From assembly GCA_021790195.1 (NCBI GenBank), contig JAJYIF010000024.1, positions 1 through 42,708 of the forward strand: 42,708 bases of DNA, written 5' to 3'. Numbering within the stretch: position 1 is the stretch's first letter; each line of letters opens with the position of its first letter. The DNA is from Nitrospirota bacterium (GTDB lineage: Bacteria > Nitrospirota > Thermodesulfovibrionia > Thermodesulfovibrionales > UBA9159). The position numbers and the translations under genes were made by a program. The notes beneath the pieces are model-generated. The model was given only the letters and a program-made list of their open reading frames with translations, did not search any database and had not been told where the DNA came from. Below, one piece after another: positions 16,215 to 33,583 of this stretch.

Positions 16215-18158
16215 CTATTCACCTTCTCTTGAGCTTTTCGACGGGAAATATTCGCAGATCGTCTTTATCCTCTTCAAGATCGATTCAGCCTCTTTCCGAT
16301 TTAGCCGCTCGATAATAAGTCTATCCGCTATCGCGCCAAGCACTTTGCCCGGCATTTCGTATTCGATATCAACGCTCAGCATGGTTCCATGAGCATCTTT
16401 TTCAAAGCGGTATGTCTCCCGAACAGGGAACGCCCCGTCCATTTTCATAGAGAATTCCCTGTTCTTGTGAAAAGAAACGACCTCGCCTCTGCCATTAAAA
16501 TTGATTCCGACCATTCTATAGGACCATTCGAACGTAATGCCTGCAGTGATCACAGTGCCCGAAACATTCCGGATACCGACAAGGCCATTTACGAACTTCG
16601 TCCAATTAGTATGGTCTGTCACAAAATCAAATACTTTGTCGAGGGGGGCTTTTATCCTGATTGCCTTTGAGATACGCGAAACCTTTCCTTCCCTTTTCGG
16701 TTTTTGCTTATGTTCTGCCTCGATCCTATCGATCAGGGTTCTGACCTTTGGCGGCATTTCCCCAAGAGAGCCTAACTTGTCGACGATGAACGAACTATTC
16801 ATGATCAGTTTCATGGAGGACAGAAGATACCGTCGCTTAAATTCGTCTTTCATCAATACAATCTCTTTCAATTTGCCCATATAAAAGCTTCTGTAACTGT
16901 CAATTATCGCCCGATCAATCTGTTTCAAGCTCATTCTATCTGGTTTGATCACGGGATCTATCAGGTTGTATTTCCGATAGTCTCTCTCGACAATGTACGG
17001 CTCGATTTCCTTATACATGTCACTGTACGGCCATGCTGCGAGCGCAAGGTAGTGGGCAAAGTCAGGGTTATAAATTTTTGAAAGAGCGAGGGTCTTTTTG
17101 ACTGTTTCCTTGGTCTCGTGAGGGAACCCGAGTATGAAACTCGTCTCGGTTATCATGCCGTGCTCGTGAATAAGACGTATGGCTTCTCTTCCTGTCTCAA
17201 CATTGACGTCCTTCCTGATCAGGTCAAGCGTCTTCTGATCAGTCGCCTCGATGCCGATATAAATGTGGACAACTCCGGCCTCTTTGTACTTCCATAATAT
17301 GTCCTTGTCACGGATGATGTCCTCGGCCCGGGTCTCCATAAGGAGATATATACCGAGACATCTTTCTCTCAGGAGGTCAAGGAGCCTCTCCCACCTCTCC
17401 CCGCTCCGGGTGGGATACTCATCCGGGATCAGAAAGACATTTACATTGTATGTCTTCTTCAGGTGCTCCAGCTCAGCTACAACGCTTTCGGGCCGCCGTC
17501 CCCGCCATGATTGATGCCAGAACTTCTGCTGCGAGCAGAACGTACAGTTGTGGCTGCAGCCTCTCGATGTGCTGACCGCAGCCAGTCTGCTCCCGGGAAT
17601 GACGAAGTATGTGTAATCCCTCCAGTCTATCAAGTCCCAGGCCCTGGCAAGACGGTCAAGATCCCTGATGAAAGGTCTCGGCGGTGTGGCGATAATTTCC
17701 TGCCCGTTTCTATATGCGATTCCTCTCACTTTTTGGGTCTTCTTGCCAGCTCGGATGGTCGAAAGCAGCTCGCTAAGCGTTTCCTCTCCTTCCTCTCTGA
17801 CCACATAATCGACAAAGGCGCTATCAAGCACCTCTTCAAAAAGAAATGTTGGATGAACGCCGCCGATGATAGTAACTATACCCGGGTTTACCTCCTTGGC
17901 AACCCTCAGGACTCCGAGCGCGTCGGTAACTGTCGAAGTGATGGCTGTCGTTGCAACAAAGTCCGGCTTGTTCTCTCTTATCGCCCTCTCTATCTCGTGG
18001 AAACCGTGCCGCTTCGTCATGGCATCGTAAATAACGGGTTCAAAACCTGCTTCCCTGACGGAACCTGCGAGGTAGACAAAGGTAAGCGGGACCCAGCGGC
18101 CCGCGACTTCCACTACGCCGCAGTGATATGGAGGAGTTATGAAAAGGATCTTCTTCAT
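16215..18158 (-). CDS. B12-binding-type radical SAM protein fused to an SRPBCC domain
   Basis: A 647-residue protein with three parts. The N-terminal Rossmann-like domain (about 1-140; ILFITPPY, FVATTAITSTVTDALGV, IIGGVHPT) resembles cobalamin-binding domains but has no DxHxxG. The radical SAM core has the CxxxCxxC cluster C201/C205/C208 (GCSHNCTFCSQQ) and a typical HGMITETSFILGFPHET strand. The C-terminal domain (about 497-634; KAIRIKAPLDKVFDFVTDHTNWTKF) has the SRPBCC/START-like hydrophobic-ligand fold pattern. It may bind SAM, a 4Fe-4S cluster and perhaps cobalamin, and act on a lipid-like or tetrapyrrole-like substrate; that is inference. The start is ATG 18158; a GTG at 18161 overlaps the previous stop. 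It is the last gene of the cytochrome-iron operon. Confidence 0.85.
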   Translation of the reverse strand: MKKILFITPPYHCGVVEVAGRWVPLTFVYLAGSVREAGFEPVIYDAMTKRHGFHEIERAIRENKPDFVATTAITSTVTDALGVLRVAKEVNPGIVTIIGGVHPTFLFEEVLDSAFVDYVVREEGEETLSELLSTIRAGKKTQKVRGIAYRNGQEIIATPPRPFIRDLDRLARAWDLIDWRDYTYFVIPGSRLAAVSTSRGCSHNCTFCSQQKFWHQSWRGRRPESVVAELEHLKKTYNVNVFLIPDEYPTRSGERWERLLDLLRERCLGIYLLMETRAEDIIRDKDILWKYKEAGVVHIYIGIEATDQKTLDLIRKDVNVETGREAIRLIHEHGMITETSFILGFPHETKETVKKTLALSKIYNPDFAHYLALAAWPYSDMYKEIEPYIVERDYRKYNLIDPVIKPDRMSLKQIDRAIIDSYRSFYMGKLKEIVLMKDEFKRRYLLSSMKLIMNSSFIVDKLGSLGEMPPKVRTLIDRIEAEHKQKPKREGKVSRISKAIRIKAPLDKVFDFVTDHTNWTKFVNGLVGIRNVSGTVITAGITFEWSYRMVGINFNGRGEVVSFHKNREFSMKMDGAFPVRETYRFEKDAHGTMLSVDIEYEMPGKVLGAIADRLIIERLNRKEAESILKRIKTICEYFPSKSSREGE

Positions 18159-18160
18159 CA

Positions 18161-18565
18161 CTACTCTCTCTTTCCGGTCCGGATTCTAAGATGCACTATC
18201 CTTTTTCTTATTCTGACCCAGACGTAAATCCCCGATCCGACGCAAATAAATGCAACGATGTGTTTGACGATCAGGGCAGGCACCTGACCTTTGCCCGCAG
18301 CGTTGGCCCACTCAAAGTCCTTATAGAATATGACCCTCGGTATGCCGCCGATAATTATCCATAATAAAGAGAACTGCGCAAGACGTGTCATGCCGCGGTG
18401 TATCCTAAGAAAGTAATCAGCTGTCGCAGTTGCAGGCGCGTCGTCGAGCCTCCTAAGCATCAGCCACATCGCGATGCCGCTTGAAAGCAGCAGGGCTGTA
18501 GCAACGTCGTGCAGATAGTTATTCATCATAAGTAGGACACCTGCTGAAGCGCTCAACTTGATCAT
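18161..18565 (-). CDS. Small three-helix membrane protein with conserved-type His (CopD/DUF2269-like)
   Basis: A 134-residue integral membrane protein with three helices (about 14-37, 62-81 and 96-118). His19 (NYLHDV), His56 (RIHRGMTR) and His102 (VKHIVAF) sit at or near the membrane, a pattern seen in heme- or metal-binding membrane proteins such as CopD-like or DUF2269 families. I do not assign a family firmly. ATG 18565 overlaps the TGA of the ATPase gene (ATGA), so translation is coupled. Its own stop overlaps the GTG/ATG start region of the radical SAM gene. It may be an accessory to the ABC or heme-handling parts of the operon. Confidence 0.65.
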   Translation of the reverse strand: MIKLSASAGVLLMMNNYLHDVATALLLSSGIAMWLMLRRLDDAPATATADYFLRIHRGMTRLAQFSLLWIIIGGIPRVIFYKDFEWANAAGKGQVPALIVKHIVAFICVGSGIYVWVRIRKRIVHLRIRTGKRE

Positions 18566-19236
18566 CTGTATTCGTCCCTGATTATCTTTCCGTCTTCCAT
18601 GGTAATTGTCCTCCGTCCCCATTGGGCGACAAAGGGATCGTGGGTGACAAGGATTATGGTGAACTGCCGTTCCGAGTAGAGCCTGTTTAGGAGCTCCAGT
18701 ATCTTCCTTGTGTTCTCCCTGTCGAGGTTGCCGGTCGGCTCGTCGGCAAGCAAGATCTGCGGGCTGTTGATCAATGCCCGTGCAATACAAATGCGCTGCT
18801 GCTCGCCGCCGCTCAGCTGCGAAGGCTTGTGGTCAATCCTGTGCCCCATTCCGACTCTTTCGAGAGAATCGGCAGCCTCTCTCTCGTCCGCGATGCTGTG
18901 AAAATACTGCGCCAGCATAACATTCTCCACCGCGTTGAGGTATGGTATAAGGTGCGATTGCTGAAACACAAAGCCGATCTTCTCTCTCCTAAATCTCGCC
19001 ATCTCGTCCTCTTTCATCGCGGTGATGTCCGTGGAATCGATAACGACCTGACCGCTGGTGGGATTGTCGAGACCGCTCATGATGTTGAGAAGCGTGCTCT
19101 TGCCGGAACCGGAGGGACCTACAACACTGACCCACTGTCCCTTTTCAACAACCATGTCGATACCCCTTAAGGCAGAAGCCGTAGCATATTCCTTAGAAAC
19201 GCACCTTAATTTTATAAACTCATCTGCACTGCCCAA
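18562..19236 (-). CDS. ABC transporter ATPase of the iron/cytochrome operon (Cj1663/LolD-MacB type)
   Basis: The 224-residue ATPase has Walker A GPSGSGKS, the signature LSGGEQQR, Walker [13 protein letters not shown] and the switch His in THDP. It belongs to the MacB/LolD/FtsE group that pairs with FtsX-type permeases, two of which are encoded immediately upstream. The start is TTG at 19234-19236, since no ATG is available until the P-loop region; AGAGGTG lies about nine bases upstream. The permease stop (19240-19242) is four bases before it. In the Campylobacter Cj1658-1663 and enteric Fet loci an equivalent ATPase acts with two FtsX permeases in iron uptake. Confidence 0.88.
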
Positions 19237-19239
19237 TGT

Positions 19240-20352
19240 TCATTCACCTCTCAGTATCGCCGCTGCATCATATCTCATGGCTCCCCTCACGGGGAAATGG
19301 CTTGCCGTAAGGGCTATCGAAAGTCCCATAGCAAGGGAAAGAAGGATCATCCATTGAGGCAGATGGATGAAGGAACCAAATGCTCCTCTCGAGATCGCCT
19401 GGGCCGATAGATAGCCGGCAATGAAGCCTGAGAGACCGCCCGAGAGTCCTATTATAACAGCCTCTGTCGTATAAAAAAGAGTGATCTGACTTCTTGACCC
19501 TCCCAGCGCCTTCATGAGACCGATCTCTTTCTTCCTTTCAAATACATTGGCGCTTACTGTGCTAGCCACGCTGACTGTTGAAGCAAATAGCGCGATAAGC
19601 GTGACCAGCGTCATAAGGAGCTGCATCTTCGAAAGCAGAGATTCTTCTGCAGACGCGACTTGCCTCAGGGTCTTGGCCGCAACCGCTGGAACATCCCGGA
19701 CGATATCCCTGGCTATACCATCTAATTTCCCCGGCTCACCCCTGACGAGAATAGCGCTGAAAACGTTGTTTGTCCCCGTCAGCTCCCATGCGTCTTCGAT
19801 CGACATGATGATACTGCTGTCTTCAGGGCCACCTTTTTCTACGAAGCCGCTCACTATGAAGTCCGCTTTGCCGCCGTTGCTTTCCAAAGACAACGTCTTG
19901 CCGGGTGCAAGCCTCAGGGCGTCCCTGAGATCGATTCCGGCCAGGACCTCGTTTCGTTTCGCCGGCCGATCTCCGATAAATCTCCAGCCGCTGTATTTCA
20001 ATCTGTCGATGTTTAGCCCGATAAGCTCAATCGCGTAACCGCCTATAAACACCTTCCCGAGAACCTGTCCTGATGCATCTTCTACATGCTGAATTCCTCT
20101 GATCTTGTCCAGGGCCGCGGCCTCGATAGAATCTCCGTTCCGGGGAGAGACGATTATGTTCGCGCCATAGGCCTTAAGTTCCGCGCCGAGTTTTTCCCTT
20201 ATGCCCGAATTGATCCCTGCCAGCGCGGTTACCATGGCAACGGCCAGCATTACAGAGAGGGAGGCTATGACAACCCGCCCTTTTCTCTGCGAGACGGACC
20301 TCGCAAAGAAGAATAGGAAACGGCGGATTTCAAACCTGCTTAACACCTTCAT
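19240..20352 (-). CDS. FtsX-type ABC permease 2 (Cj1662-like)
   Basis: A 370-residue permease with an N-terminal helix (VVIASLSVMLAVAMVTAL), a periplasmic domain beginning LKAYGANIIVSPR, and three C-terminal helices with FERKKEIGLMKALGGSRSQI. It is homologous to its upstream neighbour, so the two probably form a heterodimer with the ATPase. ATG 20352 overlaps the previous stop by four bases (ATGA). The pair with FTR1 and DUF2318 upstream is the layout of Fet-type iron systems. Confidence 0.85.
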   Translation of the reverse strand: MKVLSRFEIRRFLFFFARSVSQRKGRVVIASLSVMLAVAMVTALAGINSGIREKLGAELKAYGANIIVSPRNGDSIEAAALDKIRGIQHVEDASGQVLGKVFIGGYAIELIGLNIDRLKYSGWRFIGDRPAKRNEVLAGIDLRDALRLAPGKTLSLESNGGKADFIVSGFVEKGGPEDSSIIMSIEDAWELTGTNNVFSAILVRGEPGKLDGIARDIVRDVPAVAAKTLRQVASAEESLLSKMQLLMTLVTLIALFASTVSVASTVSANVFERKKEIGLMKALGGSRSQITLFYTTEAVIIGLSGGLSGFIAGYLSAQAISRGAFGSFIHLPQWMILLSLAMGLSIALTASHFPVRGAMRYDAAAILRGE

Positions 20353-21593
20353 TGCTCACCTTTGAGTATGACGGCGGACCTTACTTCCATCGCCTTCTTA
20401 ATCGGGAGCACTGTGCCGGCAATAGAGACGCAAGCCGCGCCCGCCATTGTCATCGGCAGAAGCATCGCTCTCTGTTCGAGGGCGATGCCAAAGACCTTCG
20501 TCCCTATGTATTGGGACGCACCGACTGAAAGGAGATAACCGAACAGACCGCCCGCGAGGCCTATCATTATTCCCTCGGTCACAAATATGAGCGCTATCTT
20601 TTCCGAACCCGCCCCAAGAGCCTTCATGAGTCCGATCTCTTCCTTCCTTTGCACAAGGCCCATTATCATGGTCGTCGAAACACCGAGGGTGGAGGCGGCG
20701 AGAGTCATAAGGCACAGCAGATAAACCAGAACCTTCAATCTCTTGAGGACCTTACCTTCAGTCCCTGCGACCTGCCATATCGGCCTTGCCTTTGATCCTT
20801 TAAACACATCCTCAATCTGTTTGGCAATCGAGGTGACATAGCCGGTGCAATACCACTTTTCGTATTCTGCCTTGGACATGGAGGCCGGGTCCCTGTAAGC
20901 GAAAGTATCCATCGGAGCGGTAAGGGCGCTCACGAGGACCTTCGAGATCTTGCCTCCCGCACCCTTCAGTCTCTGCAAGGATTCGAGGTCCATAAAGATC
21001 TGCCTGTCCTCAATGCCCCCGGAATCAAGAGTTCCTGAGATTTTAAGCGGCGTTCCGTCCACATCTATTCTATCGCCCGGTTTGACGCTGAATTCAGAGG
21101 CGATGGAAGAACCGATTACAATATTGTCTGCAGAATCCGACCATTTTCCTGAAAGAGACCACCACGGCGAAACGGTCTTTATCCCGACGGGAAAAGTTCC
21201 CGTCTCTCCCGGAAGAGGCAATTCCTTATAGTACCACGAGCCAATGAGCCCGACCTTCTCGGACTTTCCATTGCTTGTGATTTCGGCGTCGGTCTCCAGA
21301 AAAGGTGCTATGCCTACTATATTGTGTCTCCAGAAAATAGTTTTTGCCCTGACGATATCTTCATAACGTAAATATCGCCGCTGTCCCGAGAGGTCGGCCA
21401 TGCCTTCTATTTCAGGCTCCACAAGTATGTTGGCTCCGAATGCCCTCAGCTCCCTTGAGACCCTGCCGCCTATTTCCATGGAAATAACGATCAGAGAAGA
21501 CGCTATTGCCGTGCCGAAAGTTATCGACGCGATCATAAGTGCAGCCGCCTTCTTCCGGTTAGCAAAAGACCTTCTGACAATAGTCGCGATCAT
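20349..21593 (-). CDS. FtsX-type ABC permease 1 (Cj1661-like)
   Basis: A 414-residue permease with the same topology: one N-terminal helix, a long periplasmic domain starting LRAFGANILVEPE, and three C-terminal helices with QRKEEIGLMKALGAGSEKI. The segment KWYCTGYVTSIAKQIED before IWQVAGTEGKVL is the sort of sequence seen in the first permease of the Campylobacter/Fet loci (from memory, not searched). The ATG at 21593 lies two bases after the stop of the ResB-like gene. Substrate unknown; iron, or a thiol or heme-related compound, would fit the neighbours. Confidence 0.85.
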   Translation of the reverse strand: MIATIVRRSFANRKKAAALMIASITFGTAIASSLIVISMEIGGRVSRELRAFGANILVEPEIEGMADLSGQRRYLRYEDIVRAKTIFWRHNIVGIAPFLETDAEITSNGKSEKVGLIGSWYYKELPLPGETGTFPVGIKTVSPWWSLSGKWSDSADNIVIGSSIASEFSVKPGDRIDVDGTPLKISGTLDSGGIEDRQIFMDLESLQRLKGAGGKISKVLVSALTAPMDTFAYRDPASMSKAEYEKWYCTGYVTSIAKQIEDVFKGSKARPIWQVAGTEGKVLKRLKVLVYLLCLMTLAASTLGVSTTMIMGLVQRKEEIGLMKALGAGSEKIALIFVTEGIMIGLAGGLFGYLLSVGASQYIGTKVFGIALEQRAMLLPMTMAGAACVSIAGTVLPIKKAMEVRSAVILKGEQ

Positions 21594-21595
21594 GA

Positions 21596-22594
21596 CTATA
21601 TATACGCTCTTCTCTTCCCTATCGTTTCAGTCACAAAAAGCGCCAATCTCAACGGCAAGCCAATTATGACAAGGACGATGCCCGCCACAACAAGCGGGAC
21701 CCCCCGATCTTCCACAGCTTCCAGTCTTATCCAGTAGCCGGTATCGAGAAAGGTCAGGGTGAGGTTCTCAAAATCGATCCCTTTATCCGAAGGCCATTCT
21801 CCTATAAGCCTTTCCCCCCTGAAGATGGTAACGCGGTAAGCAGGAGTTTTGAGATTGTAGACTCTTGCCGAGCTTCTGCCTTTCTCTATCACCTTTTCTG
21901 GACTGAGCATCAAGTTAAACCTGAAGGGAAGGCCCTGTACCGTGAAGCTGTCCGAGCTTCCCGGAGGCAGTATCCTCTGGGGCATGTAGCCCTGTATGAC
22001 GGTCCTTCCGCCCGATGTTATTCTTATGCCGGGGGCAAGGCCGAACTCCATGATATGGAAATAGCTGCCGCCGAGCCTGCTGGGCGGGTAAACGCCTACT
22101 TCGTAATCGCGATCAGAGGCTGCCAGAGTCACCTTGGGCTCCATGGAGAAGAACCCTTTCATCTCGTCAATATCCAGCACGCTGCCTTTCAGGTTGGGCT
22201 GGATCTTCTTTACTACATAGATTTCACCGTCTGCGGCCTTGACGGTGTCTTCTTCCCCAAGCACGACCCGCTCCGTATGCTTTGAAGTTATGCTCAGGAA
22301 GAAGCCCAGGAGAAATATGAAGACACCCAATGAAAGAGGAAGCCAAAGCAGCTTGTGAAGGAGTCTTTGCCTTTGATTGTAAACGCCGGTCACGAGATGT
22401 ATGACAAGGTTTACGAGAAGGAAGATAAAGAATGTCTTGAATATAAGATTTGTCCTCAATCCCTCCACAAAATGCTCGAACGCCTCCGATCCCCATATGG
22501 CGACAGTAACATAATATGCAAGCCACGTCATAATGAGCCAGAACAGAACGCCTTTCGACGCCAGGATGCGAAGTATTTTCTTCGGGACGCTCAT
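21596..22594 (-). CDS. Second ResB-like cytochrome c biogenesis protein
   Basis: The 332-residue product has three N-terminal helices (LFWLIMTWLAYYVTVAI; FKTFFIFLLVNLVIHLV; LWLPLSLGVFIFLLGFFL), a periplasmic beta-rich domain and one C-terminal helix (VPLVVAGIVLVIIGLPL). This is the ResB/Ccs1 layout, shorter than the ResB at 25349-26650. The start ATG 22594 overlaps the TGA of the FTR1 gene (ATGA); a long upstream extension in the same frame lies inside that gene and is not coding. Two ResB-type proteins with one CcsA suggest a specialised maturation system. It could instead pass electrons or heme to the transporter. Confidence 0.75.
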   Translation of the reverse strand: MSVPKKILRILASKGVLFWLIMTWLAYYVTVAIWGSEAFEHFVEGLRTNLIFKTFFIFLLVNLVIHLVTGVYNQRQRLLHKLLWLPLSLGVFIFLLGFFLSITSKHTERVVLGEEDTVKAADGEIYVVKKIQPNLKGSVLDIDEMKGFFSMEPKVTLAASDRDYEVGVYPPSRLGGSYFHIMEFGLAPGIRITSGGRTVIQGYMPQRILPPGSSDSFTVQGLPFRFNLMLSPEKVIEKGRSSARVYNLKTPAYRVTIFRGERLIGEWPSDKGIDFENLTLTFLDTGYWIRLEAVEDRGVPLVVAGIVLVIIGLPLRLALFVTETIGKRRAYI

Positions 22595-24006
22595 TTTACA
22601 GACCCTTTGGTCTTCCCTGTTTTGACATCCTGCCATTTCTTCAGAATATCGGATGCCTGAATCCTTACGTCTCTGTCGGTTACTACGGCATTCAACGGTA
22701 TGGGGTTGCATCCGCCCGGTTCGCCGATACTCTTCAGGGGGATAGGGGTCTTGCAGTACAGGCACACTATGCGTTCATGAGACTGGCCGTATCCCTCCTG
22801 AGGGCATATTTCACAGGCATCGAGACATGTCGCGAGTCTGCCGTCCGGCTTCTTAACTATAAGAATCCGAATTACATCACTGCCGGATGAAAACGAAAAC
22901 TTATGGATGCGACCGTCGAAGAGGTCGTCACCGGATTCTCTCAGGGGGATCGAGATGACTCCTTTGTCCGAAACAACGGGCAATGGCTGAGGGAGATAAA
23001 GTGATGTGGATCTCTCGCCGGAAGCCGCGTACCAGGATGCAAACACCAACAGAAGGGAAATGAAGACAGGCGCGGTGACCTTTCTCCTGCGGGACCTCTG
23101 TGCCGCTATGAACGCCCTCCGGTGAGCGCCCTCCTGTGTCATCTCGATGCCGGTCATTGGACTGAAGATTGTCTTAACGATATAAATGGCAAGCGGAGCC
23201 GCCAGGACGAAGAGGGCGATGACGATCGCCAGCGTTGAGCCGAAAAGGAAGCCCACAAATCTCCAGACAAAAGGGGTGAGGAGAGGATGGTCCGGTAACA
23301 TGAGAATAACAAAAAGCTGGTGAATCATATCATGGAGCATCTTCATGGCCCCACGTTGAACGGACGAGACAAGAGTCATCTCCGCAAAGCCCCTGATACC
23401 GCCGCCTATCAGCTTAATTACCGCTAAAGAGAAAAGCAGACCCGGGAGATCAAAGAAAGAGCCTATTCCCTTCTTTCTCAGGTACGATGCAATGGGGATT
23501 CCAGGGCCTGCCGACAGGACAAGTCCCATGAACGCGGAGAAATAGCAGCCATAGGTGTTTCCTTTCATTAGTGCAGTCTCGTGCAGAAAAGCGAAGGCCC
23601 CGACATTTTCGGGGAGAAAGAGCATAAATGGAACAGCGAAGCAGACGGCGGTGACAAAAAAGCTGTTATTGCCCGCCTTCTTCAGCGGTCCGAGAAGCTC
23701 AATCCCGTGTGTCTGATAAAGGCCGATTACGGCAAGAATATAAAGCATCGCGAAGGAATAGGCTATGAAGTTGCCGATCTCTTCCCTGACGTCGATATGG
23801 TTATGGATAGTAAAGGCTGCTATGGCCACGGAGAGGGTCAACGACAGAATCAATCCAATGATAAATGCTTTTGTCCACTTCGATGCCGCGTGACTCTTAT
23901 CGCCTGAACGCGCATCCAAGAAGGAGATTACGAAAAGGCTGACGATGCAGACCTTCAGGCCCTCTCTGAATATGATTATAAACGGTGCGGCGACAAAAGG
24001 ATTCAT
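22591..24006 (-). CDS. FTR1-family permease fused to a DUF2318 domain, with altered REXXE motif
   Basis: A 471-residue fusion. Residues 1-275 are the seven-helix FTR1/EfeU-type iron permease. The C-terminal part (about 330-460) is a DUF2318 periplasmic domain with Cys394, 398, 401, 415, 418 and 433 in CLDACEICPQ...VCLYC...GGCNPIPL, a likely metal or Fe-S type site. In Campylobacter (Cj1658, Cj1660) the two parts are separate genes. The first FTR1 motif, normally REGLE, reads REGLK here (R14-K18), and the later motif region reads LHETALMKG without Arg, so classical ferric iron transport is doubtful. ATG 24006 follows the lipoprotein gene by 12 bases. No P19 or oxidase gene is seen nearby. Confidence 0.85.
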   Translation of the reverse strand: MNPFVAAPFIIIFREGLKVCIVSLFVISFLDARSGDKSHAASKWTKAFIIGLILSLTLSVAIAAFTIHNHIDVREEIGNFIAYSFAMLYILAVIGLYQTHGIELLGPLKKAGNNSFFVTAVCFAVPFMLFLPENVGAFAFLHETALMKGNTYGCYFSAFMGLVLSAGPGIPIASYLRKKGIGSFFDLPGLLFSLAVIKLIGGGIRGFAEMTLVSSVQRGAMKMLHDMIHQLFVILMLPDHPLLTPFVWRFVGFLFGSTLAIVIALFVLAAPLAIYIVKTIFSPMTGIEMTQEGAHRRAFIAAQRSRRRKVTAPVFISLLLVFASWYAASGERSTSLYLPQPLPVVSDKGVISIPLRESGDDLFDGRIHKFSFSSGSDVIRILIVKKPDGRLATCLDACEICPQEGYGQSHERIVCLYCKTPIPLKSIGEPGGCNPIPLNAVVTDRDVRIQASDILKKWQDVKTGKTKGSVK

Positions 24007-24018
24007 CTTGATAACCTA

Positions 24019-24498
24019 TCAGACCGGTGAGAGGTCGAAGACCTTCCAAAGTCCTTTTTCTCTGACCATGTTATATCTCATGTGATATTCAATGGAGGTC
24101 AGGGGCTTGGCCTCTTCTTTTGTTTTCACATTGATACGCCTGTATCTCCAGTTTTCCTTTGTCGTCACCACAACATTGTCCGGTCCCCATCTCTCGACTT
24201 TTTCTATGCGCATACGCTCCAGCTCGGCCTCCATAATAAGAGACTGAGAAAGAATATCTTCTATGAGATGAGAGACCTTATTGAATTCCCTGTCTGTAGC
24301 AAAATCCCTCAATGGGGCCGGATCGTTCTGCCTATATGCAGACACGAGCGCCTTGTTGTAGGCTCTGACCGCACTTACGGCATCGGCGGCGTCAGGGTCT
24401 TTTCTAAGAAAATCCTTAACGGACGAAAGTTCGATGAAGTCATTTGAACAACCTAAGAGAAAGATCATAAATGTAACGGCGCCTATGATTCTCTTCAC
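24019..24498 (-). CDS. Small lipoprotein with NTF2/IMS-like domain
   Basis: The 159-residue product has a lipoprotein signal with lipobox LLGC (Cys16), so it should be anchored to the outer or inner membrane. The mature part is helical then beta-rich (VRAYNKALVSAYRQND, VVVTTKENWRYRRI, LWKVFDLSPV), like NTF2 or IMS-type domains; I hold that family call loosely. The start is GTG 24498, with GAGG eight bases upstream, ten bases after the ccsA stop. Its place between ccsA and the FTR1 fusion suggests a periplasmic partner of one of them. Confidence 0.65.
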   Translation of the reverse strand: MKRIIGAVTFMIFLLGCSNDFIELSSVKDFLRKDPDAADAVSAVRAYNKALVSAYRQNDPAPLRDFATDREFNKVSHLIEDILSQSLIMEAELERMRIEKVERWGPDNVVVTTKENWRYRRINVKTKEEAKPLTSIEYHMRYNMVREKGLWKVFDLSPV

Positions 24499-25342: not shown

Positions 25343-25348
25343 ATTCTA

Positions 25349-26650
25349 TTATGATAATCGTTGATTTTGCAGCTTTTCAACGATCCTCCTTATTTCTTCC
25401 TCGAAGAAGTCGGGGAAATATTTTGTCCAGCCCTTTATGAGTGCCTTGTTCCCTGTAATGCTGATCTCCATCTGTTTATCGGGGAAGACGAATCTCAGGG
25501 CAAGACCGAGCACCCCCATGCCGAACCCGGCGGCAAAGATCCAAAGTCCATAGTCCCTTCCCACGATGAGGTCAACCCAATAGTTGAGGGCGTCAAATTT
25601 GATATAAAGTCCGCCGATATCCACCGTGTCTCCCAGACGAACAAAGTTCCTGCCCAATTCCCGGCCGTTCGAGGTCATCCTTAGCAGGAAGACCGGATTC
25701 TTTGGAACGATGCTTCTGCTTCCGAACCGGCCGTTATCGTAAAAGAAGTCGGGGAAGAATTCCGTGTAAATCAGATACGGCGTATTGGGTATCAAGAAAG
25801 AATCTTCTTTGCCTCCGACGACGACAAGGTTGACCGTGGCATTCAGGACCTCCCTGCCTTTCTCGTCAGTTACCTTGAAAGAGGGGGCGAATCCGAACCT
25901 GTGAAGACTCAGCTGGAATCCGCCCATGTCCGCAGGTTTATTTACGTGAACGTCTTTCCGCGCTCCATCGATGGAGAGTTCGGCAGAAAAGTCTTTCGCG
26001 AATTTTCCCTTTTCATAGGACGGCACGAACCTTTTGAGCTCGACGACCGACGACGGCACTTCAGAGAGCCATCTGTTTTTATATATCTTAACGAAGGCAT
26101 CCTTTCCAAGCTTCATTGGAAATCCTTCCGTCAGAAGGAGTTCAGCGCTGAACCTTGTAATGGAAGAAACGACCACCGCGATAAAGACCACAAGGAGGCC
26201 GAGATGAAATAAGACAGAGCCGTGAAAGCCGTAACCGCCTTTTGTGGCCTTTAGAGTATCGTCCTCTCTCACCACGCGCCATTTTTCGGATGAAAAGATG
26301 GAAAATATCTCTTCGTACCTCAATTGTGTTTCACCTGCTGCTTCCCTGTAAAACCCTCCTTCTCCGGCGGTCTTCAGACAGAGGCGCTTCATCGTACAGA
26401 GAGCGGTGCTTAGAAATATCAAGGCTGGCAGGACGAGGAAATAAGGAGACGAGATGAGTGTCTCGATCTGGAGAGAGTTGCTTATCAGGAAGAGAAGCGG
26501 CCGGGAGGTCTTTAGTGCGCCGGTCTCTTCAGGGGTCATCGAAGCTATATCGGGAAGAGAGGTGCCCAGGATAAGAAATGCGACCATGATTGCAAGAAGA
26601 TAGACGGCAAATCTTCTTGAGGGAAGGAGCCGAGTTAATCTATGCATCAT
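25349..26650 (-). CDS. resB: ResB cytochrome c biogenesis protein (System II)
   Basis: A 433-residue ResB/Ccs1 protein: helices near residues 14-32, 65-85 and 150-166, a large periplasmic domain, and a C-terminal helix (LWIFAAGFGMGVLGLAL). A His at the start of the third helix (GFHGSVLFHLGLLVVF) is in the place of a heme ligand. It acts with CcsA to ligate heme to c-type cytochromes. The start is ATG 26650 or the next codon 26647. It begins 115 bases after the giant cytochrome gene; I saw no terminator in that gap, so co-transcription is likely. Confidence 0.9.
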   Translation of the reverse strand: MMHRLTRLLPSRRFAVYLLAIMVAFLILGTSLPDIASMTPEETGALKTSRPLLFLISNSLQIETLISSPYFLVLPALIFLSTALCTMKRLCLKTAGEGGFYREAAGETQLRYEEIFSIFSSEKWRVVREDDTLKATKGGYGFHGSVLFHLGLLVVFIAVVVSSITRFSAELLLTEGFPMKLGKDAFVKIYKNRWLSEVPSSVVELKRFVPSYEKGKFAKDFSAELSIDGARKDVHVNKPADMGGFQLSLHRFGFAPSFKVTDEKGREVLNATVNLVVVGGKEDSFLIPNTPYLIYTEFFPDFFYDNGRFGSRSIVPKNPVFLLRMTSNGRELGRNFVRLGDTVDIGGLYIKFDALNYWVDLIVGRDYGLWIFAAGFGMGVLGLALRFVFPDKQMEISITGNKALIKGWTKYFPDFFEEEIRRIVEKLQNQRLS

Positions 26651-26764: not shown

Positions 26765-29700
26765 TTATGGATTGGTGTCGTAATCGTAATTAGCTGCTCC
26801 ACTCGTGAAAGACACGCCGTTATGGGAATGTGCGCAATTATCCACTGCATCCACGCTTCCCTTTGTCCAGCATGATCCAGCGCTAGCCGTCGTTGAGCGT
26901 GTGACTGCGTACCAGGTCGATCCCCCAAGAAGCCGCTTACCCGAGTAACTCCCGCCGCTTCCGTTGAATCCCTTCCCGAGGTTTTCGCCGTGTATGCCGC
27001 CTGTCCTTGCTCCGCCGTGGCAGTTCATGCAGACGATACCCCACTTGTTTTTCGCTGTTAATGAGTGAGAGCCGGAGTCCACAGGATGGCTCTGGCGTGA
27101 ATATCCGGGGCTGGCCGGCGAAGTATAATTATAATCTCCATACACATCCCTCCTGTGGCAGTTTAGGCAGAAAAGATACGTGTCACTCGGACTAAGACTG
27201 TAGGCCGTATCAACCCCGCTTGAGTTCAGAGAAATAAAACTCTGGACGACCGCCTTTCTCAGCAAATACTTTGTTGCCGAGCCATGAGGCCCCATGGGGT
27301 CGGTGGTCGTGTCGCTCTCGTGACAGTCCGAGCAGCGCATGGTCGACCAGGGTCCCCATGGCGGGACAAAGGTGCTGCCCAATCCTGCTGTTACCGACCA
27401 GTACTGAGTGCTCGCAACAGCTATCGCGGGCGTAACTGTAAAATGCGTGCTGTCCGTAATAGATACGACCTGGAACCAGCCGTAACCCGTCCCCCCGGCT
27501 GCCGGGGTTTTGGCACTATTGTTGGGATTGTCACCGCCATGTGTTCCGGTTGTATCGACCCATACATACCAGCCGGGTATTACGGACTTCGGCAGTGCAG
27601 CAGCACCTCCGAAAGTGGCATTGCCGGACGAGTCTATTGTTAAGACATCTGTTGTTGAAGTAGTGCCGTATTTAGGCCAATTTGGATTCCATGAAGTTGT
27701 GGCGGCCGTATTGTAATTTGCGGTTATCGGCTGGTTCTTGCCTATCGCGAATATTGGGTGGTAGCCCAGGTTGTTCGGGCTGAATTCGTTAGCTTTGTCT
27801 CCCTGCGTCGCTGTGCCGCCCACTGTATTGCCCCATGTCGAAGAAGTGCTGTTCGGCAGCCCTGAAGCCGTTGCGGGCGCAGTAGATCCATAGGCATAAG
27901 CGGAGTGGCACTTGATGCAGATCTGACCTTGTATTGTGGCGCTCTCGGTCCTGTTCCATGTTGAAGGAGAGGTAAAGATCGCTGTGCCGGTCTTGCAATT
28001 GCCGCTCGCGCCGGCATTGGAATCAGTAGCATCATTAGTTGTTGTCGAACTCCCGCATGCGCCACTGCTGTCGTCCCAGTTTGTATAGGAACTATAGGTC
28101 GGCCAGGTAGGGTTGAGGCCCCATACACCATTCTGAGGCCCCCTGACGGTGTTTCCGTCGCTTGTGCCTCTCTTGAAGATAATGAACCCGCTGCCGGTTG
28201 TAGCGCTCCCCGTGCCGGGCGCAGTGGCGAACTTCACGTATATCTGGTTTGCCGTGTTCCCGTATATTACGCTCATCTGTCCGGCTCCTGTAGCCGACTG
28301 GGTAGATAATAATTGCAGGATTTTCACCGTGTAACCTGTCCACTGGTCGGCTGTCCAGTTCGGTGTACCGTTGGCTGTCAAAGTATCGTATGAAGCTCCG
28401 CTTGAGTAAGCGTTCACACTCCCTGTTGCATTGCCGCTCGCAACCGGCTGGGCGGCGTGTGGGTTATGGCAGTCTGCGCATTCAATGTGCCTGTTTGTGC
28501 CGCTGAGCGTGCCGTCGTTGGCAGTTGCGCCCTCGTCTGCAGGCTTGTGCAGTCCTGAATAGTTCTGGACCTCATGCCCAAACGTGTATGTAGCGGACGT
28601 AAAAACATTGTATATAAGCTCTGATGCAACCGACATTGCTTTCCCCAGAGTGCTGCCGTACCAGTCATAACCCGGATTAGGTTTTACGGTTCCGCCCACG
28701 GTATCGGTCGTCCTCGAGTGGCACCTGTAGCAGAACTGCTCTTCATAGTCCGCGGACACGGTTCCTCCAAGGGACGACAGGAGCCTTTTTGCTGTGGAGT
28801 CATGCGTTCCCATGTCATTTGCCGAATAGAACTGGGCTGTCTCGCCGTTTTGTTCGTCGTGGCACTTGACGCAATTGGCGTTGAACGTCTTTGATCCTGT
28901 CTTTGTCGTCATCGCTACGTTATATTGATGGGCCGACGAGTAGAAATTGGCTTTCGTCACCGTGAGTGTCTTAGTGGAGCCCGTCTCTGTCGCCTGCCTT
29001 CCCGTGTCCTTAATGAGATTTCCTGTGCCGTGGCAGCTTACGCATATGCCTCCGTTAGTCAGGGTATTGTCGAAGTCCGTATTCGTATAACCCGAAGACG
29101 CTGTGGGCTGCACCGTGATGTCGGTCCTCAGGTTCATCGCCCTGGGTTGGGTTAATGCAGCGTTGGTGTTCATCCTGTCGCTGAACTTGTTGTGCTTCAC
29201 ATGGCACATGAGACATTTCCTGCTCGCCGGGTTTGTGCCCGTCGACCAGTTCCCCTGAGGAACTACATTGGCAGCGGCCGCATTGTAAGGATAGTCGCTG
29301 TCAGGATCTGATGTATTCGGAGTATATGCTTCGGTATTGATGGAGTGGTGATATGTGGTATTGGAAGTCAGATCGATCTTATGACAATCCGTGCACCGGG
29401 TCGAAGGATCCAGATCGTTCCAGTTAAGAGTCGTATTGGTATTGTCCGCAGTGGTTGTACCTGTCGGATGGCATGAGACATTGGAGCATGTGCTGACTCC
29501 TGAGTATGCGTTATATGTATAAGTCAGACTCACCGTACCAGAAGCGCTCACGTTCTCACCGGTCGGATATGAATTTGACGCATTACCGCTCGTAACAGTA
29601 TACGAACCGTTTGCATGAGTCGTGCTTCCCGTTGCTATAGTCGCGCTGTCCGTAGTCGTCTGATAGTGGCAATGCTGGCACTTTGTCTCGCCTGTATTTA

Positions 29701-32700
29701 TCGTGTTTGCGGTTATATGAAGTCTGTGTGCGTTCGGTTTTGCGCCGGCGATCTGCGTTGTTGTGGAATTGTATAGCGGAGCGCCTATCCGGTAATCCGA
29801 CGTATATGTAGAATTCCCGTGGCATGTGTTGCAAGCCACGCTTGTGGGACCCCATGTCGGAGTGCTGCCCGCGCCGGTAAGCCCGGACCATATAGAGGTG
29901 CCGTCGCTGTGACACTTGATATCCGTGCAAGAGCCGTAAGCCGTCCCGACGGTCTTCTGATAAACGTTGGTCCCCCCTGCATTCTGAGAATTATAGGTGG
30001 CCGTGTTAAGGGCGGCATTCGAATCGAGGTTTATTGTTACGTAGCCGTTCACGTGGTTGGCATAGGTGCCTATAGCGGAATTTGAAGAGGCAGTAGCATT
30101 GTGACAGTTGTTGCAGGTCGCGCCTTTCAGGTGCCCGGAATGAGAACCGCTCGAAAGCGAGCTTGCATCGCCGTGACAGCCGTTACATCCAAGGCTCGAC
30201 CCCCACGTTGGATTGCTATATGTTATGGCCGCCTGGGCATCTGAATGACAGTATATGTTTGAACATCCTCCATATGCGTCGCCGGGCGCGGGCGTGCCCG
30301 TGTATGAGCCGACTACCGAGATATTCCCAACTGTACCGTTTATAGCAACGTCCACATTGCCGTCGGCGTGCTTCGTTGTTCCTTCTCCCGCCCCGTTGTG
30401 ACATAAAGTACAGGCGAATCCATATGTGCTGACGTGCTTGGTATGGCTTCCGGAATCCATAATCGTTGCGTTGCCCGAAGATCCGTCAGCCTTATGGCAT
30501 GTGCCGCACTGACCTGAAGATGCGTTTCCCCATGTCGGTGACGCGTAGGTCAATGCGCCGCCGGGAGGTGACGTCTGGACATTACTATGACAGTAAAGGT
30601 TGGAGCAATTGCCGTAGGCGTCGAGCATGGTCGGAGTTCCGCTGTACGCTGCGGATGCCCCGATGTATGTCTTTGAGGTATCAAAGGCGAACTCGGACTG
30701 GTTGTTCACGTGGGTCGTCGTTGCAGCGGGCGGCACATATCCGTTATGACAATCCGAGCACGGCAGCGCCCTGTTTGGAGATGCGCCTGTGTGTTTTTGA
30801 TGGCTGCCCAGAAGGGGAGGGTTGGACGCCGAAGCGCCGTGGCACGCCCCGTTCGGATTGCTGCTGCATGAATATGATCCTGACGCTGCTGTCCATGAGG
30901 GGGTTGTTGCAGTCCCGTTGTTGTTCCCCATGGTCGAGCCGTGACAGTAGACGGAGCATGTCGGATCTGACGTGGTGATGTTCACCGTTGTCCCGGCGGC
31001 CGTACCATATCCGGTATATGGAGAAGCCGGAGCGCGCGCATTAAGTGTGCCGGAAGCAATGGACCCGTTGAAATTCGGCACATTGGTGGCGTTCAGCGCG
31101 AATCCCATATCAATGGTATAGCTCGGAATTGCGTTCGTCGGCATGCCGCCCGTATGGCACGCTTCACAGAGCATTGCCCTTGTTGTAGCGTGGAAGACGT
31201 GGGCCCCGGCGCTCGAAGGGTTGGTGACACCGGTTGCCGGTGTTGCAACGCCAGGAGGCCCGATAGTCCCGTCCTGTGGCGGATCGCCGTGACAACTAGT
31301 GCATCCGCTCATGAAAGCGTTCTTATGGTTATGGCATGTGGTGCAGTCGGCGCCGTTGTTGTGGGAATCGGTTACGGACATATTGTAGGCATGCTTATTA
31401 ACTCCGTTGGCATCTGACGCGTCATAGACATGACAGACTTCACATACAAAAACAGAGGTTGAATGTGTCACCGAATCATCACCCATTATTCCGGAAGTCT
31501 GGGGACCGGGGACGGCAGCTGTTCCGGATTTCACCCTAAAATCGACGGACACACTATTTGTCGCGCTACTCAGGAAGTTCGAGCCGTCCGGAGTGGTTAT
31601 TGCCCCTTTTATCAAGTAAATGTTGCTTGTGCCATGGGCTGTGTGGCAGGTAGTGCAGAGAAAGACGCCGTAGACCCCGCCGGTAACGCCCCAACCGCCA
31701 GAGGACGCATGTTTGCCTGGCGTCCAGGTGCCGTTGCCTTTTGTGGGATCGATGCATTCCGACATCGTTTTGTATAAAGCGTTGGAACAAGTGCCAAGGA
31801 TTTCGGAGCTATGCATCTTGATCGCATTGCCCCAGTCCGAGTTTGCGACGCCGCCGATTACCGAAGGCGTATTCACATTCGTCTTATGGCAAGCCTGGCA
31901 TGTCTCTTCCTGGGACCGTTTCAACAGATTGCCATCACCGGAGCCCAAGGTGGCAATAGTTGTTGTCGCCGTATTGCTCGTAACATCGGCATGTCCGTTG
32001 CCGCTTCCGTCAGCAGCCGTAACCGACGTCTGCTCGGAAGAGCCGATGGTGCCGCCAGAGGCAGTCGTATGCGTCAATGTTGTTGTGCCGGACTGACCTC
32101 CGTTGAGCGGACCGATGGCTGTAGCCCCAAGAGTGGATGCGGTGAAATTAGTGTTGGGAACCAAGGGCAGGTCCGTATTGGTGAGGTTGAAGGAAGTACC
32201 GGAACACACCGCAGTGTCGTTGTTCGTCACGGTTACGGTGTAGTTAACGCTCCCTCCTGGTTTCACGCTTTGTGCAGAAGGGTAAATGGAAACAGAGGGA
32301 TTTGCTCTGACGCAAGTGGCGGCTACCGTAGTGTAAGAGAAAGCATAACTGGAAGCCATGGCATTTCCGGCCGAGTCGGTGACATTTGTTGATACAGTTA
32401 CGGAATAGGCGGTATTGTTCGCCTGTCCGCTCGTAGTAAAGGTAGCAGTGTTATTTAAGCAGCTCGATAATGTCCATCCGGGACTTGTCGATGTTATGTT
32501 AGTCGCATTGACCGTGCTACAGTTTACGTTCTCGCTCCAGGTTATTGTGACATTGCTGTTCAGAGTGACGTTCGTTGCCCCATTCGCCGGATTCGTACTG
32601 CTCACCGTCGGCGTTACAGTATCCACCGTAACAGTTACGCCCGCGCCCGGCGTCTCGACATTATTCGATGAATCAGTGGCCTTGCTCAATATAGTATATG

Positions 32701-33583
32701 AAACCCCGTTCTGGGTAGGCAGTGTCCAACTATAAGACCAAGTAACACTTGCCCCCGGGCAACCCGTGCATGTCGCCGTGTTCCAGGTGGACCCGCCGTC
32801 AGTAGAGACCTGAATGCCGGATACCGCAACGTTATCCGTTGCCGTGCCGGTTATCGCATACGGATTCGGAGATGCGAGATTCAAGGTTGCTCCGCTTGCC
32901 GGCGACGTTATGCTCGATGATGGAGGAGTCGTATCAGGCGGCGTGTAAGTGATTGAAACCTGATCTACCCAAAGGTTTGACGTTGCGGCTCCGGAGTTTC
33001 CGGACTTGGTATTCATTGTGATTCTTATTTGAGTCACATTCTGCGCAAGAGTCAGGGCGGGAGAGTTTGTCCTTTGGGTCCAGGTGCTGTTGGTCAATTC
33101 GCCGGTGCTTAATATATTAACAGTAGTGTTATCGGCATAAACCAGATCCACTGACACATTATCGCCGGTGGTCTCATTGCTGGTTGTTAGCTGTGTCCAT
33201 AAAGATATAGCAGATACGGTTGAGCCCGACGGAATGCTTACCGCCTGAGTTACCGTTCCTGAGACGGCGCTGTTCCTTCCCGAGGTCGCGAGTTTGGCTG
33301 AGCCGGTTCCCGCGTCATATGTGGTTGTGCCGTCATAAGCAGACGTAGCAAACGACCAGTTGGTGCTGCCGGAAAAAACGCCGTTTGTGACCATTTCAGC
33401 GGCATGCGCGTCCCCGCAAACAAGAGCCGACGCGAAGATGACCGTCAAGAATATGCCTTTCATTCGGAATGGAAAAGAATTGCGTGCAACAGCAAAGCCA
33501 CGTTCGACACCAGGCGTTGTCAGTCGAACAGAGGTAAAGAAGTTATTGTTAAAGCTTTTTGCCTTTTCGATCCGTTCCTTCAT
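26765..33583 (-). CDS. Giant multiheme c-type cytochrome with Ig-like N-terminal domains
   Basis: About 2,270 residues. After a signal-type segment (MKGIFLTVIFASALVCGDAHA) come a jelly-roll-like domain and Ig-like repeats (DTTPPSSSITSPASGATL; VTPTVSSTNPANGATNV; SVKPGGSVNYTVTVTNND). From about residue 560 to 2190 I count 23 CxxCH motifs, four CxxxxCH (CSNLYCH, CSNIYCH, CTDIKCH, CSNVSCH) and one CxxxCH (CSVYCH), about 28 possible hemes. The mixed motifs match the Geobacter-type CxxxxCH/CxxCH repeat family. Likely role: extracellular or outer-surface electron transfer. The start is uncertain: ATG 33583 (used here), ATG 33463 just before the signal peptide, or TTG 33637; none has a good ribosome-binding site. 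The gene precedes the resB-ccsA pair on the same strand. Confidence 0.85.
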   Translation of the reverse strand: MKERIEKAKSFNNNFFTSVRLTTPGVERGFAVARNSFPFRMKGIFLTVIFASALVCGDAHAAEMVTNGVFSGSTNWSFATSAYDGTTTYDAGTGSAKLATSGRNSAVSGTVTQAVSIPSGSTVSAISLWTQLTTSNETTGDNVSVDLVYADNTTVNILSTGELTNSTWTQRTNSPALTLAQNVTQIRITMNTKSGNSGAATSNLWVDQVSITYTPPDTTPPSSSITSPASGATLNLASPNPYAITGTATDNVAVSGIQVSTDGGSTWNTATCTGCPGASVTWSYSWTLPTQNGVSYTILSKATDSSNNVETPGAGVTVTVDTVTPTVSSTNPANGATNVTLNSNVTITWSENVNCSTVNATNITSTSPGWTLSSCLNNTATFTTSGQANNTAYSVTVSTNVTDSAGNAMASSYAFSYTTVAATCVRANPSVSIYPSAQSVKPGGSVNYTVTVTNNDTAVCSGTSFNLTNTDLPLVPNTNFTASTLGATAIGPLNGGQSGTTTLTHTTASGGTIGSSEQTSVTAADGSGNGHADVTSNTATTTIATLGSGDGNLLKRSQEETCQACHKTNVNTPSVIGGVANSDWGNAIKMHSSEILGTCSNALYKTMSECIDPTKGNGTWTPGKHASSGGWGVTGGVYGVFLCTTCHTAHGTSNIYLIKGAITTPDGSNFLSSATNSVSVDFRVKSGTAAVPGPQTSGIMGDDSVTHSTSVFVCEVCHVYDASDANGVNKHAYNMSVTDSHNNGADCTTCHNHKNAFMSGCTSCHGDPPQDGTIGPPGVATPATGVTNPSSAGAHVFHATTRAMLCEACHTGGMPTNAIPSYTIDMGFALNATNVPNFNGSIASGTLNARAPASPYTGYGTAAGTTVNITTSDPTCSVYCHGSTMGNNNGTATTPSWTAASGSYSCSSNPNGACHGASASNPPLLGSHQKHTGASPNRALPCSDCHNGYVPPAATTTHVNNQSEFAFDTSKTYIGASAAYSGTPTMLDAYGNCSNLYCHSNVQTSPPGGALTYASPTWGNASSGQCGTCHKADGSSGNATIMDSGSHTKHVSTYGFACTLCHNGAGEGTTKHADGNVDVAINGTVGNISVVGSYTGTPAPGDAYGGCSNIYCHSDAQAAITYSNPTWGSSLGCNGCHGDASSLSSGSHSGHLKGATCNNCHNATASSNSAIGTYANHVNGYVTINLDSNAALNTATYNSQNAGGTNVYQKTVGTAYGSCTDIKCHSDGTSIWSGLTGAGSTPTWGPTSVACNTCHGNSTYTSDYRIGAPLYNSTTTQIAGAKPNAHRLHITANTINTGETKCQHCHYQTTTDSATIATGSTTHANGSYTVTSGNASNSYPTGENVSASGTVSLTYTYNAYSGVSTCSNVSCHPTGTTTADNTNTTLNWNDLDPSTRCTDCHKIDLTSNTTYHHSINTEAYTPNTSDPDSDYPYNAAAANVVPQGNWSTGTNPASRKCLMCHVKHNKFSDRMNTNAALTQPRAMNLRTDITVQPTASSGYTNTDFDNTLTNGGICVSCHGTGNLIKDTGRQATETGSTKTLTVTKANFYSSAHQYNVAMTTKTGSKTFNANCVKCHDEQNGETAQFYSANDMGTHDSTAKRLLSSLGGTVSADYEEQFCYRCHSRTTDTVGGTVKPNPGYDWYGSTLGKAMSVASELIYNVFTSATYTFGHEVQNYSGLHKPADEGATANDGTLSGTNRHIECADCHNPHAAQPVASGNATGSVNAYSSGASYDTLTANGTPNWTADQWTGYTVKILQLLSTQSATGAGQMSVIYGNTANQIYVKFATAPGTGSATTGSGFIIFKRGTSDGNTVRGPQNGVWGLNPTWPTYSSYTNWDDSSGACGSSTTTNDATDSNAGASGNCKTGTAIFTSPSTWNRTESATIQGQICIKCHSAYAYGSTAPATASGLPNSTSSTWGNTVGGTATQGDKANEFSPNNLGYHPIFAIGKNQPITANYNTAATTSWNPNWPKYGTTSTTDVLTIDSSGNATFGGAAALPKSVIPGWYVWVDTTGTHGGDNPNNSAKTPAAGGTGYGWFQVVSITDSTHFTVTPAIAVASTQYWSVTAGLGSTFVPPWGPWSTMRCSDCHESDTTTDPMGPHGSATKYLLRKAVVQSFISLNSSGVDTAYSLSPSDTYLFCLNCHRRDVYGDYNYTSPASPGYSRQSHPVDSGSHSLTAKNKWGIVCMNCHGGARTGGIHGENLGKGFNGSGGSYSGKRLLGGSTWYAVTRSTTASAGSCWTKGSVDAVDNCAHSHNGVSFTSGAANYDYDTNP

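Follow-up and report, generated by a model that had tools for sequence, protein, structure and literature searches.

What does a locus do in which a giant multiheme cytochrome and its heme lyase stand beside homologues of the Fet iron-uptake proteins? The locus in question comprises eleven open reading frames (ORFs) on the minus strand between positions 16215 and 33583 of the window, i.e. the whole stretch of 42,708 nucleotides of a Nitrospirota contig (JAJYIF010000024.1) that was analysed. The genes, which we call CYT, RESB, CCSA, LIPO, FETA, RBL, FETB, FETC, FETD, SMALL and RSAM (Table 1), had been read by an original prediction, made from the DNA letters, as one operon joining the cytochrome, a System II heme lyase and a Fet-like iron transporter. 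All eleven do lie on one strand, and from RESB onward no gap exceeds a dozen bases, as claimed: the junctions from CYT to RSAM measure, in order, 114, 6, 10, 12, -4, 2, -4, 3, -4 and 2 base pairs (bp). The 'many' ATGA overlaps reduce to three, namely FETA/RBL, FETB/FETC and FETD/SMALL. Our best reading is that FetABCD has been recruited away from iron import, and we see evenly balanced chances that the locus is a dedicated system for multiheme c-type cytochrome maturation and heme handling in Nitrospirota, not a Fet iron importer. Gene content and order, recurrence, co-occurrence and the loss or retention of motifs are observed, and every biochemical step is inferred.

A FETA profile matches 24 of 395 phylum genomes, 23 of them strongly, spread over 23 of 170 genera and about twelve families. 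The 24 genomes compared here (G061 included) comprise 23 with FETA and one, G229, with only the paralogue FETA2, and several loci are cut by contig ends. In a separate contig collection a single-sequence scan finds no relative, whereas the profile scan finds 19 named loci, all titled as metagenome-assembled genomes. By name, 16 of these are of Nitrospirota type, one is an 'uncultured bacterium', one belongs to Deferribacteres and one to Geobacter (L071); many are the same genomes as those of the phylum set.

The constant partner of FETA is a ResB-like gene. FETA and RBL are adjacent in 21 of the 23 genomes, the exceptions being one contig end and one locus with an unrecognised ORF of 422 amino acids (aa), as well as in 18 of the 19 named loci, and of 18 FETA2 loci, 15 have a ResB-like gene after FETA2. 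The predicted joining of Fet-type genes to cytochrome c assembly thus extends beyond one genome. FETB, FETC and FETD are all present within 8 kb in 16/23 genomes, most of the remainder being contig-end cuts. Moreover, 15 of 24 genomes have a CcsA-type gene (CCSA or its variant CCSA2) no more than 8 kb away from FETA or FETA2, compared with about 6% expected per genome, an expectation that uses roughly five CcsA genes per genome, taken from 2 to 8 CcsA-family matches per genome. RESB and CCSA also stand beside FETA in G261, G325, G342, G384 and G397 and in the bin named Geobacter. That the gene order is found in other genomes, too, is best seen in G325 and G342, where an array of CYT, RESB, CCSA, X183, RBL3, FETA, RBL, FETB, FETC and FETD is followed by RSAMB on the other strand, SMALL, CCSA2, RESB2 and FETA2. 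The suggested tie to one very large cytochrome holds in part: 7/23 genomes have a gene with at least four CXXCH motifs within 8 kb of FETA, but neither the number of hemes nor the size is the same among these cytochromes.

The last two genes of the locus co-occur with FETA across the phylum. RSAM orthologues, delimited by a clear gap in the scores (837.9 versus 682.4 bits), are present in 23 of the 395 genomes, 22 of which are strong FETA genomes; only G073 (RSAM only) and G353 (FETA only) do not share both. SMALL is present in all 23 strong FETA genomes and, more weakly, elsewhere (44/395 at E 1e-8), in a set without a clear E-value gap, from which the cut that retains 25 of the 44 (E 1e-45) was chosen after seeing the list. 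FETA, SMALL and a BchE-like radical S-adenosylmethionine (SAM) enzyme occur together in 22/395 phylum genomes, and the overlap probabilities of FETA, SMALL and RSAM are about 1e-33 if related genomes are treated as independent.

Table 1. Genes of the locus in the window, in the order of the minus strand.
Feature	Product	Coordinates	Strand	Remarks
CYT	giant exported multiheme cytochrome	26765..33463	-	2232 aa from likely start 33463; Big_5 Ig-like domain
RESB	System II CcsB/ResB subunit	25349..26650	-	PF05140 E 9.6e-29; FH histidine retained
CCSA	System II cytochrome c synthase subunit	24509..25342	-	PF01578 E 7.7e-37; WxWD, C-terminal histidine
LIPO	small NTF2-like lipoprotein	24019..24498	-	just weak sub-cut-off Pfam matches
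FETA	FetA-like membrane protein, C-terminal FtrD-like (DUF2318) domain	22591..24006	-	PF10080 E 1.5e-24
RBL	ResB-family protein	21596..22594	-	profile-profile 99.3% to ResB; conserved ResB transmembrane histidine missing
FETB	FtsX/MacB-type permease, FetB homologue	20349..21593	-	phmmer E 5.5e-81 to E. coli FetB
FETC	FtsX/MacB-type permease, FetC homologue	19240..20352	-	phmmer E 1.1e-38 to E. coli FetC, 1.8e-37 to FetB
FETD	LolD/MacB-type ATPase, FetD homologue	18562..19236	-	phmmer E 2e-76 to E. coli FetD
SMALL	134-aa membrane protein, three long predicted helices	18161..18565	-	conserved NYxHD and KH
RSAM	cobalamin-binding radical SAM protein with fused SRPBCC	16215..18158	-	nearest BchE; PF10604 E 1.1e-13

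Is this locus, then, a Fet iron importer in an unusual setting? With the Fet system (FetMP-FetABCDEF; Cj1658-1665 in C. jejuni, plasmid-borne fet in E. coli) it shares a FetA with a DUF2318 domain and the cysteine motifs CxxC, CxxC and GGC, two FtsX-type permeases and an ATPase, with FetB and FetD being clearly homologous. What it lacks is the iron channel and its periplasmic partner. P19 (PF10634) is absent from all 24 carrier genomes, which are 86-100% complete, and none of them has an FTR1 protein (PF03239, the family of FetM) over the cut-off; there are two weak matches (E 1e-4 to 5e-4), one of which is FETA itself. The window's own genome (96% complete) conforms to this, as it has no P19 and its sole FTR1 match is FETA, below the cut-off. 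Therefore neither Fet iron uptake nor the premise of an iron permease is supported. Of the gene set of Campylobacter Cj1658-1663, to which the locus had been likened, FetA, the two permeases and the ATPase are present, but FTR1 over the cut-off and P19 are not. According to excerpts of a survey (PMC6083913), the first six Fet genes, FetM and P19 included, hold one order in 33 species, and our E. coli control locus has FetM, P19, FetA, FetB, FetC, FetD and TlpA in a row without ResB, whereas the order here is A-RBL-B-C-D or B-C-D-A-RBL. Also unlike Fet loci, the eleven products of the window include no thioredoxin or flavin mononucleotide protein recognised by Pfam, and FETA has a ResB-like partner and stands together with genes for System II and radical SAM proteins. 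One related locus, L036, has a redoxin-like ORF of 107 aa (14067-14390) between RESB2 and a BchE-like gene, which might serve as a thioredoxin partner there.

FETA itself had been labelled 'FTR1-DUF2318', and an identity as FTR1 permease was considered and rejected: the Pfam FTR1 cut-off is 25.3 bits and FETA scores 15.6, and the N-terminal RExxE motif reads REGLK. The protein is rather FetA-like (PF10080). Its EfeU score, too, is far below that family's own cut-off, and the transmembrane (TM) part has weak FTR1/EfeU similarity (E 4e-4 to 0.01, and E 1.3e-4 in another search). By comparison, E. coli FetM has three RExxE copies (REGLE, RELLE, REGAE), and in E. coli FetA the motif occurs only as RETEE at 227 and RETPE at 445. 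C. jejuni FetA consists of eight TM helices, DUF2318 and a YHS domain, as given in the excerpted account of PMC10783030, whereas a Pfam scan finds no YHS domain in FETA. Five cysteines of the FETA C-terminal domain are common with E. coli FetA, and the four of the two CxxC motifs are kept in 23/23 FETA and 15/15 FETA2 sequences; this periplasmic domain is probably of iron-sulfur (Fe-S) type. The FETA clade has, in addition, a motif of its own, KxxHDxxHQ...DH, in which K222, H225, D226, H229, D239 and H240 are invariant in all 23 aligned sequences, a set that mixes genomes and named loci and differs from the 23 FETA genomes. E. coli FetA is without these residues, and of them FETA2 has mostly retained only H240 (12/15).

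In a structural model of FETA (predicted local distance difference test score 82.9, predicted template modelling score 0.67), the six listed structures that cover residues 347-468 are all Rieske ferredoxins (Z 8.3-8.7 over 92-106 residues, root-mean-square deviation 2.5-3.4, near noise level), and Rieske oxygenases rank first in Foldseek, which returns no match at E 0.001. This similarity is a lead, no more, because the scores are close to those that unrelated models reach; the CxH and CxxH cluster ligands of Rieske proteins are absent from the domain, whose conserved ligand candidates are cysteines only. The TM region matches transporters at Z 8.3 to 10.4, values not to be trusted for a helical bundle, and FETA and RBL profiles give nothing meaningful against the sequences of solved structures. 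DUF2318 proteins also occur outside such loci: the window's genome encodes a second one of 168 aa (G000:C23), and in L122, the Pelobacter propionicus plasmid pPRO1, a stand-alone DUF2318 protein accompanies one FtsX permease and an ATPase beside heavy-metal genes, with similar small sets in L052 and L053.

The System II genes of the window, by contrast with their ResB-like companions, look ordinary. RESB scores 101 bits against PF05140 (cut-off 24.6) and CCSA 127.4 bits against PF01578 (cut-off 29.9), which places them in the ResB and CcsA families, respectively; the score of CCSA for the CcsB equivalog TIGR03144 is slightly below the cut-off (183.6 versus 187.6 bits). CCSA matches the solved CcsBA structure 7s9y (E 3e-16) and contains WGWD and the C-terminal histidine, with a putative P-His1 read in YVHVFF. 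WxWD and the C-terminal histidine are kept in 7/7 CCSA rows, FH in 7/7 RESB rows, and LIPO homologues adjoin RESB-CCSA in other cassettes as well. CYT, counted from position 33583, has 23 CXXCH, four CX4CH and one CX3CH motifs, each of the four CX4CH being followed by a CXXCH, which is the Geobacter pattern PF09698. Its ORF is open from 33637; a start at 33463 is more likely than one at 33583, because a signal peptide, MKGIFLTVIFASALVCGDAHA, can be read from there. The window's genome has a second cassette of this kind (L152, G000:C52:42000-60895) with the order CYT-(PMT/TPR)-RESB-CCSA-LIPO-RSAMB-RSAM', in which the cytochrome is an 828-aa relative of CYT with 13 CXXCH motifs and the radical SAM genes encode a second B12 radical SAM protein and a BchE-like one.

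The companions are variants of the same families. Profile comparison supports the ResB kinship of RBL, RBL2 and RESB2 and the CcsA kinship of CCSA2 (probabilities 97.9 to 99.8%). The histidine at the FH site of RESB is absent from RBL in 25/25 rows and from RBL2 in 14/14, and in CCSA2 WxWT takes the place of WxWD and the C-terminal histidine is lacking (11/11). CCSA2 is paired with a short ResB near FETA2-RBL2 in L045, L046, L047, L049 and L108. What defines the heme-handling family is a WWD motif flanked by two periplasmic histidines, and Chlamydomonas CcsA tolerates loss of the Asp (both from excerpts of PMC6299221); CCSA2 falls outside this definition, since the second periplasmic histidine is missing. 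Neither Pfam nor NCBIfam has a match to SMALL at E 0.01, and a fold search yields nothing usable (best E 1.7); YxHD is conserved in 18/18 rows and KH in 16/18.

BchE is a tetrapyrrole cyclase of chlorophyll synthesis, and the substrate of its equivalog family TIGR02026 is Mg-protoporphyrin IX monomethyl ester. RSAM shares with BchE the B12-binding and radical SAM parts; it scores 429.6 bits against TIGR02026 (the L036 copy 406.8), under the cut-off of 481.35, and differs from BchE also in its fused SRPBCC domain and its setting among cytochrome maturation and FetA genes. Among the 40 of 91 matching records that were listed, the best are six plasmid records with 36-38% identity over 455-475 aa (E 3e-84 to 3e-93), five of them annotated bchE and one unannotated, and the others, some also annotated bchE, have E 2e-43 or weaker. 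In a tree with long outgroup branches, the 63 Nitrospirota rows group together; this group, true BchE and two further bchE-annotated records meet in an open fork. Inside the group are the window-type RSAM (11 rows, mostly SRPBCC-fused), RSAMC (14) and RSAM' (37).

The sister clades, in particular, keep company with cytochrome maturation genes. CcsA is nearby in 32 of 45 fetched RSAM' regions (out of 48 listed lower-band matches; one of the 45, L198, groups apart from the main RSAM' clade), compared with CcsA or RESB in 0 of 19 control regions, which come from RSAM' genomes and not from FETA genomes. CcsA, RESB and a multiheme cytochrome occur together in 14/45 RSAM' regions, and a cytochrome in 1/19 controls; one control, L211, has a radical-SAM match and a gene with five CXXCH but no lyase. 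In the RSAMC clade a lyase lies within 8 kb in 7/14. Near window-type RSAM, SMALL or RSAMB is found in four loci besides the window (L067, L135, L139, L140) and cytochromes in three (L135, L140, L143). The case for the window's RSAM is thus made by co-occurrence and by the sister clades more than by a recurring position. Seven loci (L169, L171, L183, L186, L187, L189, L195) show a recurrent cassette of CcsA, a B12 radical SAM protein, a protein of about 500 aa and a BchE-like radical SAM protein; the ~500-aa proteins scanned, those of L169 and L183, are LuxE-like acyl-protein synthetases, and the similar locus L193 has a PMT/TPR protein.

How might these parts work together? MacB-type ATP-binding cassette (ABC) machines do mechanical work on periplasmic partners. 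In the maturation system that we propose, RESB and CCSA would be an ordinary System II heme exporter/synthase that attaches heme to the giant CYT, with LIPO as a small accessory of the synthase. FetA, RBL and FetBCD would form one membrane module, in which FetBCD would be such a MacB-type machine, FETA would supply a membrane His cluster and, on the periplasmic side, its cysteine-rich domain of probable Fe-S type, and RBL would be a ResB-like partner without the ResB heme histidine. This module may spend ATP and electrons on keeping heme or heme iron reduced, and may hand heme to the synthase or free it from there. An analogy suggests that heme, or its redox state, is what FetBCD and FETA-RBL act upon at the synthase: in System I, ATP hydrolysis by the ABC complex of CcmABCD serves heme transfer from the WWD protein (PMC9616876, in excerpts), and the module would be the System II counterpart. 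The likeness is limited to an ABC complex aiding heme release, as FetBCD is of MacB/FtsX type and neither CcmC nor CcmE is recognised among the eleven products. SMALL may, judging by its histidines, bring electrons or bind heme. RSAM with its SRPBCC domain would be cytoplasmic and would most plausibly act on a tetrapyrrole upstream of export. With System II (ResB/CcsA, CcsBA) the locus has in common RESB and CCSA with their WWD motif and histidines, including the match to the solved CcsBA, and it departs from System II in its links to an ABC transporter and a FetA-like protein, to additional ResB-like proteins and to BchE-like enzymes. Synthases dedicated to special heme motifs have a precedent in Wolinella (excerpts of PMC12285233).

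Several observations weigh against this proposal. Since the heme histidine is missing from RBL, FETA and RBL may together have no contact with heme. In 9/24 genomes there is no lyase gene within 8 kb of FETA or FETA2, several of these loci being at contig ends, and only 8/24 have a BchE-like gene within that distance. In the window-type RSAM clade a lyase is found within 8 kb in 1/11, the window itself, and four of the eleven loci (L132, L138, L145, L148) have no other system gene nearby. The FetABCD homologues of C. jejuni are required for iron-limited growth, as stated in excerpts of PMC10783030. Finally, CYT could be a separate transcript, given the 114-bp gap before RESB; a terminator scan, used solely for this point, lists no terminator-like site in it, terminator counts being somewhat above and promoter counts about equal to those of shuffled sequences.

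The likeliest alternative, which is compatible with the proposed maturation system, is a pathway for a modified heme, in which BchE-like enzymes methylate or cyclise heme or a precursor and dedicated or variant lyases (CCSA+RESB, CCSA2+RESB2) export and attach the product. We consider it rather unlikely on the whole. The proximity of RSAM to BchE in the match listing and the tree, the CcsA-type genes near two sister clades and the altered motifs of CCSA2, which is found with FETA2, all speak for it. Against it, RSAM stays under the BchE cut-off, the fork that it shares with true BchE is open, the window's own RSAM clade is hardly linked to a lyase, and the window's own CCSA is canonical. Moreover, the LuxE-like genes in one cassette type and PMT/TPR proteins in some loci could mean lipid or glycan chemistry. 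No modified heme is known to us in this group, which also counts against it. In its full form, i.e. with BchE-family enzymes and SRPBCC partners remodelling heme or its precursor, the FetA/ResB-like/MacB-type module moving or reducing the modified heme, and System II lyases, CCSA2 included, installing it, the idea is doubtful; if true, it would mean a new kind of cytochrome c maturation and a new heme.

Iron acquisition without FetM is an unlikely alternative as well. FetA itself would be the iron permease, its His cluster lying in the weakly FTR1-like TM region, with the Fe-S domain reducing Fe(III), FetBCD energising the process and the cytochrome genes adjoining as consumers of iron or suppliers of electrons. 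The Campylobacter phenotype and the weak FTR1/EfeU similarity are in line with this, and the six invariant residues of the FETA motif could bind metal. Against it stand the loss of RExxE and the consistent lack of P19 and of FTR1 over the cut-off, as well as the constant partner of FETA, a ResB-like protein, and its co-occurrence with a BchE-like enzyme.

Two independent units that are neighbours by chance, cytochrome plus lyase and FetA-ABC plus radical SAM, are highly improbable, for while the carriers without a nearby lyase, the 114-bp gap and the lyase linkage of window-type RSAM in the window only would suit them, lyase proximity is far above the chance estimate, G325 and G342 repeat the mixed order RESB-CCSA-X-RBL3-FETA-RBL-FETB-FETC-FETD and all gaps from RESB to RSAM are 12 bp or less.

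Dedicated System II synthases (PMC12285233, in excerpts) and FetABCD are already known. In the literature searched, which covered few subscription papers, we found no description of the union of System II and FetABCD, of the fixed ResB-like partner, of the absence of FetM and P19 or of the BchE-like enzymes in this context. The locus points to an undescribed kind of heme handling, perhaps heme modification, in mostly uncultured bacteria. If the proposed maturation system is real, FetABCD, the iron-uptake role of which is biochemically unsettled, gains a second context without an iron channel, and its core activity, i.e. redox and ABC work on a periplasmic cofactor, would be separable from iron import. 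System II, in turn, could have ATP-driven, Fe-S-bearing accessories, and the BchE-like enzymes of Nitrospirota would be linked to cytochromes, raising the question whether the heme in the multiheme cytochromes of these bacteria is ordinary or not.

Across the window there is no Rfam match to an RNA regulator at gathering scores. The locus is flanked on either side by genes of other kinds. On the same strand, a separate set of MacB permease, ATPase, HlyD adaptor, TolC-like protein and MarR regulator (33964-39455), an ordinary efflux set, ends 380 to 500 bp upstream of CYT, depending on the start chosen. On the plus strand, 13108-16086 encodes a large protein, which we take to be PAS/GGDEF/EAL-like and whose N-terminal portion contains a single CXXCH (CTMCH); it is possibly a heme sensor and stands beside the cytochrome locus.

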